Shown here: piece by piece, positions 33,966 through 35,749 of the stretch
How positions within the stretch are numbered: position 1 is the stretch's first letter
Layout of the letters: each line of letters begins with the position of its first letter
From: SAR202 cluster bacterium bin22
GTDB lineage: Bacteria; Chloroflexota; Dehalococcoidia; Lucifugimonadales; UBA3495
NCBI GenBank assembly: GCA_002238505.1
Contig: MPMM01000003.1
Coordinates: 62,001-126,000 of the forward strand
Direction of reading: 5' to 3'
DNA length: 64,000 nt
The notes under the pieces: model-generated
Told to the model about the DNA's origin: nothing
Databases searched by the model: none
What the model saw: the letters and a program-made list of their open reading frames with translations, nothing else
Translations under genes and position numbers: made by a program

Positions 33966-34472
33966 CTAATCTCCCGCCGGTGGAGGATAGTCATCCAGAT
34001 TGAAAGGACTGCCGTTCAGGTTAATGGTGTCCTCGAACATTTCCGGGCGACCAAAAGACTGCCGGGCATAGCAACCGTTGCGAGCGTTCCGCATGAGGCC
34101 GGCAACCCTTTCGGGCGGGTCGCTGGACTCAACGTCATAATGGATAAGGACCTTGTCGGCCTTGGCCTGGATGGTCTGCCGCAGCACGGACCCCTCGGAG
34201 GAAACCGAAAAGCCAATGTTGGCCTTAACCTGACCCAGGTCAACTTTCATCATTTGAGCGTACCGCTCAAGCTGGGTCATTTCTCAAAACAGGATAGAAA
34301 CGGCAAAGTAGGTCATGGGTGACGGGGCCGTGTTGTCGCCCATGGGTGGGCCTTCGTCGCACATGATGGTAAAACCGCGGGCTTCAGCCTGTTTCTTCAT
34401 TCCGTCCAGGGTCATAGCGTCGCCGTTTATCGTAAAGGAACGGGAGACTCGGTCATTGTCCGCTGTGGTCAT
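33966..34472 (-). CDS. OsmC-like selenoprotein (in-frame TGA at 34284-34286)
   Basis: Read through one TGA, the frame gives a complete 168-residue OsmC/Ohr-fold protein. Residues 1-62 end in NTAPSPMTYFAVSILF, residue 63 is encoded by TGA, and EMTQLERYAQ follows in the same frame. OsmC-family proteins have the peroxidatic Cys exactly at the start of this central helix, and the partner Cys134 (RNARNGCYARQ) is present. The ATG has AGGAGGA 6 nt upstream. A SECIS-like hairpin starts 13 nt after the TGA. The protein would reduce organic peroxides by selenol/thiol chemistry in the cytoplasm. It is divergent from the cupin gene. A nonsense mutation is the alternative, but no other damage is visible. 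Confidence 0.88.
34254..34270 (-). promoter_or_regulatory. SECIS-like hairpin of the OsmC-like gene
   Basis: Minus strand: stem TTGAGCG / CGCTCAA, 7 bp, loop GTA. The loop begins 21 nt after the TGA. Bacterial SECIS elements need a short stem with a small loop bearing G in its first two positions, roughly 16-37 nt from the UGA. All are met. Confidence 0.82.
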
Positions 34473-34532
34473 GGCTTCCTCCTGTGAATTTTTGTGGTGG
34501 AGAGTATAGCACGTGAGCAACTTTCGTCATTC

Positions 34533-34688: not shown

Positions 34689-35075
34689 ATGCCCATTATT
34701 GACCATTCCCAGACTCCTGAAGTTCCGTGGAGGCCCGGCTACCGGAAGTGGGATGTAGCCGGTCACGAGCAGGGAGTGACCAGCACCTTCAGTATAAATA
34801 CCGCCGAACCAGGGACGGGGGCGCCCCTTCATACCCACACCATTGATGAGCTGATTGTCATCATGGAGGGAACTCTGGAAGTTGTGATGGACGGCGAAAC
34901 CCGGACGGTGGGTCCCAACCACACGGTGGTAATTCCACCGGGGGCAGAGCATGGTTTCAGGGTTACCGGCGAGGGCGCGGCGCATCTGCTGGTCTTCTTC
35001 CCTGCCCTGAATCCGTACTCGGAAGAGCATACGCACTACCTGGAGGGCGCGCGCCCCGCGTCGGTTTCCGAGTAG
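34689..35075 (+). CDS. Cupin-domain protein
   Basis: 128-residue single-cupin protein from ATG 34689, with GAGGAGA upstream; the frame is open to 34494 without support. Metal-binding motif 1 is G-x5-H-x-H-x3-E: GAPLHTHTIDELIVIMEG. Motif 2 is PPGAEHGFRV. With three His and one Glu, a metal site is likely. It sits between two predicted selenoproteins and probably shares a transcript with the AhpD-like gene 58 nt downstream. Its substrate is unknown. Confidence 0.88.
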   Translation: MPIIDHSQTPEVPWRPGYRKWDVAGHEQGVTSTFSINTAEPGTGAPLHTHTIDELIVIMEGTLEVVMDGETRTVGPNHTVVIPPGAEHGFRVTGEGAAHLLVFFPALNPYSEEHTHYLEGARPASVSE

Positions 35076-35133
35076 CCGCAGATTTTGCCAGGCCACAACG
35101 CAATAGTTGACGAAGGAAGGACAGGAGACAACC

Positions 35134-35694
35134 ATGACCTGGATACGACAGGAAGAAGTGGGACTGCCAGGGATAATCAGTTCCATGTCAATCAACCCCA
35201 AAATGATGGAGGCGGTCCGAAATCTCAACCAGGCCATCAGTTTTGGAGCATCGGAACTGACCCGCGTACAGGAGGAGTCAATCGCGGTGGCTGTTTCAGT
35301 AATCAACAGGTGTCGTTATTGAGCCTCGTCTCACGGAGGGTTCCTCCGTCAACACTCCGACGACCCTGAATATGCCAGTCATATCCTCCACGATTACACC
35401 ACAGCTGATCTGGACCCTCAGACCCGGGGAATACTGGACTTCGCGGTGAAACTCACCAAGGAACCCACCGAAATGAGGGAATCGGATGTGGATGGTTTGC
35501 GGAGCCTTGGCCTGACCGACGAACAGGTGCTTTCGGTGGTGGGTATTACCTGCCTGTTTAACTTCATGAACCGCCTGGCTGATGGCTTGGGGGTGGATAT
35601 CGAAGCTGAGCGCCAGAGGTCCATGGACGGCTGGGTTACCGGTCCTGCGAGAGAGTTGGACTGGCTGTGGGTTTTCAAGGGGCAGCGGGTCTAG
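35134..35694 (+). CDS. AhpD-like (carboxymuconolactone decarboxylase fold) selenoprotein, TGA at 35320-35322
   Basis: Read through one TGA, the frame codes for 186 residues matching the peroxidase-related AhpD/CMD family throughout: ISFGASELTRVQEESIAVAVS, then VINRCRY-[TGA]-ASSHGGFLR, then LDFAVKLTKEP and YLFNFMNRLADGLGV-like LFNFMNRLADGLGVD. The family active site is C-x-x-C-x3-H; here it is Cys60-R-Y-Sec63-x3-His67, so the TGA replaces the second Cys. AGGAG precedes the ATG. A SECIS-like hairpin begins 10 nt after the TGA. It follows the cupin gene, and the pair ends in a strong terminator at 35719-35749. It would act as a thiol/selenol peroxidase. Confidence 0.9.
35333..35349 (+). promoter_or_regulatory. 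SECIS-like hairpin of the AhpD-like gene
   Basis: Stem ACGGAGG / CCTCCGT, 7 bp, loop GTT, loop beginning 18 nt after the TGA. The same architecture (7 bp, 3-nt loop starting G) as in the OsmC-like gene although the sequences are unrelated. Confidence 0.83.
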
Positions 35695-35718: not shown

Positions 35719-35749
35719 CGGGGCGGGTTCCGAACCCGCCCCGTTTTTT
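35719..35749 (+). terminator. Strong intrinsic terminator after the AhpD-like gene
   Basis: An 11-bp stem CGGGGCGGGTT / AACCCGCCCCG with loop CCG, followed by TTTTTT. It separates the convergent AhpD-like and hydrolase genes. Confidence 0.92.

Follow-up and report, generated by a model that had tools for sequence, protein, structure and literature searches.

Is the TGA that interrupts an AhpD-like reading frame in this SAR202 cluster bacterium a codon for selenocysteine, or the mark of a damaged gene? The frame occupies positions 35134..35694 (+ strand) of the window (the whole stretch of 64,000 nucleotides that was analysed), and specifies 186 residues if its one and only TGA, codon 63 at 35320..35322 (+), is read through, in the context NRCRY-U-ASSHGG. 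It begins with ATG, with AGGAG upstream at 35123-35127, and 3' of its stop codon there is a terminator-like element, as read from the sequence: a GC-rich hairpin (GGGGCGGGTT-CCG-AACCCGCCCC) and a T run (T6), at 35720..35749 (+). A first-pass annotation had proposed that this is a selenoprotein gene in which the second cysteine of the AhpD active site is replaced, and that the part after the TGA has no start codon of its own nearby. The frame is as that annotation described it, and the first listed start downstream of the TGA (under the standard code) is a GTG at 35446.

How well does the joined protein fit the family? It matches TIGR01926 ('peroxidase-related enzyme') with 128.8 bits against a cut-off of 81.8, over profile positions 23-174 of 178, and PF02627 with 41.7 bits against a cut-off of 23. 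Both matches run uninterrupted across the TGA into the 123 codons that follow it. The TGA falls at the second position of the AhpD redox motif (C60-R-Y-U63-x3-H67), and the active-site pattern of TIGR01926 (C-x-x-C-x3-H with an upstream Glu) is present as E48, C60, Y62, U63 and H67. In 31 sequences E48 and C60 are invariant, and the column of U63 is occupied by Cys in distant relatives. The predicted structure is the all-helical AhpD fold (pLDDT 92.7), for which the best Foldseek matches are 3c1l (TM 0.80), 2prr and 2pfx; sequence comparison with the PDB likewise found peroxidase-related proteins, 2pfx (1.6e-27) and 3c1l.

Could this be an ordinary ahpD gene of the Cys type, broken by a nonsense mutation or garbled in assembly? 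A single substitution (TGT or TGC to TGA) would suffice, and the assembly is a draft in 58 contigs. The distribution of the TGA is a different matter. Homologues were sought in the genome of the window itself and in those of relatives at the rank of genus, family or order, 59 genomes in all, of which 34 had a match. Among the matches listed, the 20 that are full-length and at least 58% identical (one of them the window copy) each have exactly one TGA, at the same alignment column. When more distant paralogues were added, 39 copies had TGA at the Sec column and 18 did not; the latter comprised ten with Cys (TGT or TGC), six with Gly, one with Glu and one with TAA. Orthologues thus keep the in-frame UGA where other copies have Cys, and the Cys copies among distant relatives are, judged from the alignment, the expected Sec/Cys exchange. 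The first-pass expectation that homologues would carry TGA or Cys at this position was therefore borne out, with the nuance that one paralogous clade has Gly (once Glu). That independent genomes, from several genera and families, share a TGA at this codon refutes the idea of a chance lesion, and selection tells the same story: in comparisons with the nearest relatives the part downstream of the TGA has dN of about 0.05 and dS of about 0.77-0.82, and the upstream part is similar, so the 123 codons after the TGA appear to be translated and under selection. Four tandem AhpD-type genes, each with a TGA at the Sec position and its own hairpin, were seen within about 3 kb in one relative (G040:C22; L078).

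The sequence ACGGAGG-GTT-CCTCCGT (35333..35349, +) begins 10 nt after the TGA, just as the first-pass annotation had it. It forms a 7-bp hairpin, also seen in the predicted fold, with the apical loop GTT at 35340-35342, 17 nt after the TGA, the first base of the loop being G; these features agree with the published model of the bacterial SECIS element (PMC13188914). Of the 1780 TGA trinucleotides on both strands of the window, about 5% are followed by a loose bacterial-SECIS pattern, and this one alone has, 8-12 nt downstream, a hairpin of seven perfect Watson-Crick pairs whose 3-nt loop holds an early G. The 63-nt hairpin region has a predicted folding energy of -18.1 kcal/mol, but the single-sequence z-score is only -1.6 (equally good folding was seen in 15 of 200 shuffles), and the strong evidence for the hairpin is therefore comparative rather than thermodynamic. 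Of the 39 TGA copies, 33 can form the full set of seven pairs and 37 at least six; of the 18 non-TGA copies, one (that with TAA) can form all seven and three at least six. Among 27 distinct sequences, four of the seven pairs have changed on both sides; the covariation score is 0.359, a value reached by no shuffle (0.132, sd 0.021), and 94.7% of cells are paired, against 35-57% when the partner is slid by one to three columns. Even the choice of codons is constrained: among comparisons in which the amino acid has not changed, 109 of 113 (96%) within the hairpin show the identical codon, compared with 942 of 2089 (45%) elsewhere. The hairpin thus fits the SECIS model and is conserved and covarying among TGA copies, which argues further against a pseudogene, as do the low dN/dS on both sides of the TGA and the presence in this genome of the machinery described below. 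We give virtually no credence to nonsense mutation or misassembly.

The search for Sec machinery that the first-pass annotation had called for found all of it in the same genome: selA (542 bits), selB (348 bits), selD (386 bits; L019, G000:C57:40142-41065) and a tRNA-Sec (67.5 bits) with the anticodon TCA (UCA in the RNA). The selD gene has an in-frame TGA of its own, in the motif C-A-G-U, a CxxU form found in a minority of Sec-containing SelD proteins (about 5.6%; PMC2398784). A tRNA-Sec scoring above the cut-off was detected in 17 of the 18 genomes checked (the window's own and 17 relatives), and the best tRNA-Sec of each genome examined has the anticodon TCA. The possibility that UAA or UAG also serves as a Sec codon was considered and rejected, since the TAA and TAG codons checked, which lay within the matched stretches of other relatives, were ordinary terminal stops with one exception, and every relative's best tRNA-Sec has the TCA anticodon. 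The exception is the TAA copy already mentioned (L045, at a contig edge, G023:C85), in which the SECIS-type hairpin is intact. The tRNA-Sec of that genome also has the anticodon TCA, which should not read TAA, and the copy may either have been knocked out recently or contain an error in its sequence.

The genome contains a second tRNA gene with the anticodon TCA (called by ARAGORN at G000:C19:22389-22478; L131 1501-1593), which is class II and Ser-like, with a 7-bp acceptor stem. It lies on another contig, where it adjoins a tRNA-Ala gene and is near a transposase-like open reading frame; against the tRNA-Sec family it scores 42.6 bits, below the cut-off of 47. From its sequence it is a possible UGA-reading tRNA, and might be supposed to insert serine at codon 63 as a suppressor, independently of the Sec system. 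Yet a 100% match to it was found in this genome only, with a single TCA relative (G003, L132), and many genomes that lack this tRNA keep the in-frame TGA; serine would, moreover, be unsuited to a redox Cys position, and the hairpin, the Sec/Cys exchange and SelA, SelB and SelD all fit selenocysteine. Suppression by this tRNA is accordingly very improbable. Taking together the conserved UGA, the Sec/Cys exchange, the covarying hairpin, the Sec machinery and the purifying selection downstream of the TGA, we have high confidence that these sequences describe an AhpD-like (TIGR01926) selenoprotein, in which SelB and tRNA-Sec(UCA) would insert selenocysteine at UGA codon 63 under the direction of the hairpin that starts 10 nt after it.

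What might such a protein do? It would be a small all-helical oxidoreductase, with Sec63 as its main nucleophile, activated (by analogy) through a relay of Glu48, Tyr62 and His67. Sec63 might attack a peroxide or similar electrophile, or join in disulfide exchange; Cys60 could then resolve it as a selenenyl-sulfide, as the analogy with its relatives suggests, to be reduced by a cellular thiol system. A peroxidase or reductase activity may be inferred from such likenesses, among them that to PA0269, whose five proton-relay residues (Glu36, Cys48, Tyr50, Cys51 and His55; PMC3141380) have the same spacing as E48, C60, Y62, U63 and H67 here. Members of TIGR01926 are annotated 'peroxidase-related', but some fold relatives do other chemistry (the debrominase Bmp8), and the wider fold family, which also includes CMD and Sestrin, is functionally mixed. 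Selenocysteine might therefore be inserted into a protein with some other redox or transferase role (dehalogenase-like, disulfide reductase or stress-adaptor). This we consider somewhat unlikely, in view of the five-residue relay pattern with its unchanged spacing, and of the annotation of the closest solved relatives as antioxidant or peroxidase-related.

The paralogous clade in which Gly occupies the Sec/Cys position (CxxG, in copies L043, L046, L047, L059, L084 and L085; Glu in L044) shows about 45-51% identity, never has TGA, and has a mostly decayed hairpin. It is conceivable, though we think it rather doubtful, that this clade arose from the Sec-AhpD family within the present Chloroflexota lineage, lost the redox dyad and took on a non-peroxidatic role, Sec copies having multiplied elsewhere, as in the relative with four tandem Sec genes; if so, the CxxG clade would be a natural record of the loss of Sec to a residue other than Cys.

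The first-pass annotation had also drawn support from a nearby OsmC-like gene (33966..34520, - strand, start provisional; PF02566, 42.6 bits), and this second selenoprotein is supported on evidence of its own. Its in-frame TGA (34284..34286, -; ILF-U-EMTQ) is kept in relatives, the U-E-M-T so formed matching the UxxT of known OsmC-like selenoproteins, and is followed by a SECIS-like hairpin, TTGAGCG-GTA-CGCTCAA (34254..34270, -), which shows paired changes in relatives (GAGCG-GTA-CGCTC versus GAGAG-GTA-CTCTC). Between the two selenoprotein genes is a cupin gene (34690..35075, +, start provisional, scanned as 34692-35072; PF07883), in which no selenium feature was seen. All three congeners examined retain the OsmC, cupin and AhpD neighbourhood, and one further genus retains OsmC with AhpD, but none of these neighbours was found beside AhpD in five more distant genomes examined. 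A shared operon was rejected, because the OsmC-like gene is on the opposite strand and the other window genes are absent beside AhpD beyond this near group of relatives. Elsewhere in the same genome, two further OsmC-domain frames have an in-frame TGA, one in the context AAWAA-U-TVVT (L067, G000:C40:106387) and the other close to the C-terminus (L066, G000:C53:430826).

AhpD-like selenoproteins with CxxU, and OsmC-like proteins with UxxT, are known from the Sargasso Sea and from the Global Ocean Sampling survey (PMC1088965; PMC2398784). The first account of the AhpD-like kind, assigned to COG2128, was from the Sargasso Sea (PMC1088965), and a 2026 review catalogues 'AhpD-like protein, TIGR01926, CxxU' (PMC13188914). 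Since both families are already listed as prokaryotic selenoproteins, the present gene adds an example to a catalogued family and leaves the list of families unchanged; a literature search of limited coverage found no paper on the Sec-AhpD copies of this Chloroflexota lineage. Its value is as a clean selenoprotein case, with strong SECIS covariation within a coding sequence. Standard gene calling would cut the enzyme at residue 62 or annotate a C-terminal fragment only, and so give a false picture of the antioxidant repertoire that these uncultured bacteria possess.

The Cys-type peroxidase-related AhpD proteins (PDB 2pfx, 3c1l, 2oyo, 2prr and 6k40) have the same fold at about 29-34% identity, but have C-x-x-C-x3-H, with Cys in place of Sec and no in-frame TGA. 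The alkylhydroperoxidase-related (seleno)protein family NF041238 (CFYUT) likewise combines an AhpD-type domain with a CxxU Sec motif; membership of it was rejected, the score being 58.1 bits against a cut-off of 175. The OsmC-like neighbour resembles the known PF02566 UxxT selenoproteins in its U-E-M-T and its SECIS-like hairpin, the one difference seen being in host lineage. The known AhpD-like selenoprotein of TIGR01926 shares the family model, the CxxU motif with Sec in second place and a bacterial SECIS element directly downstream; what sets the present case apart is its host, a member of the Chloroflexota (Dehalococcoidia-related), and the Gly-bearing paralogue clade nearby.
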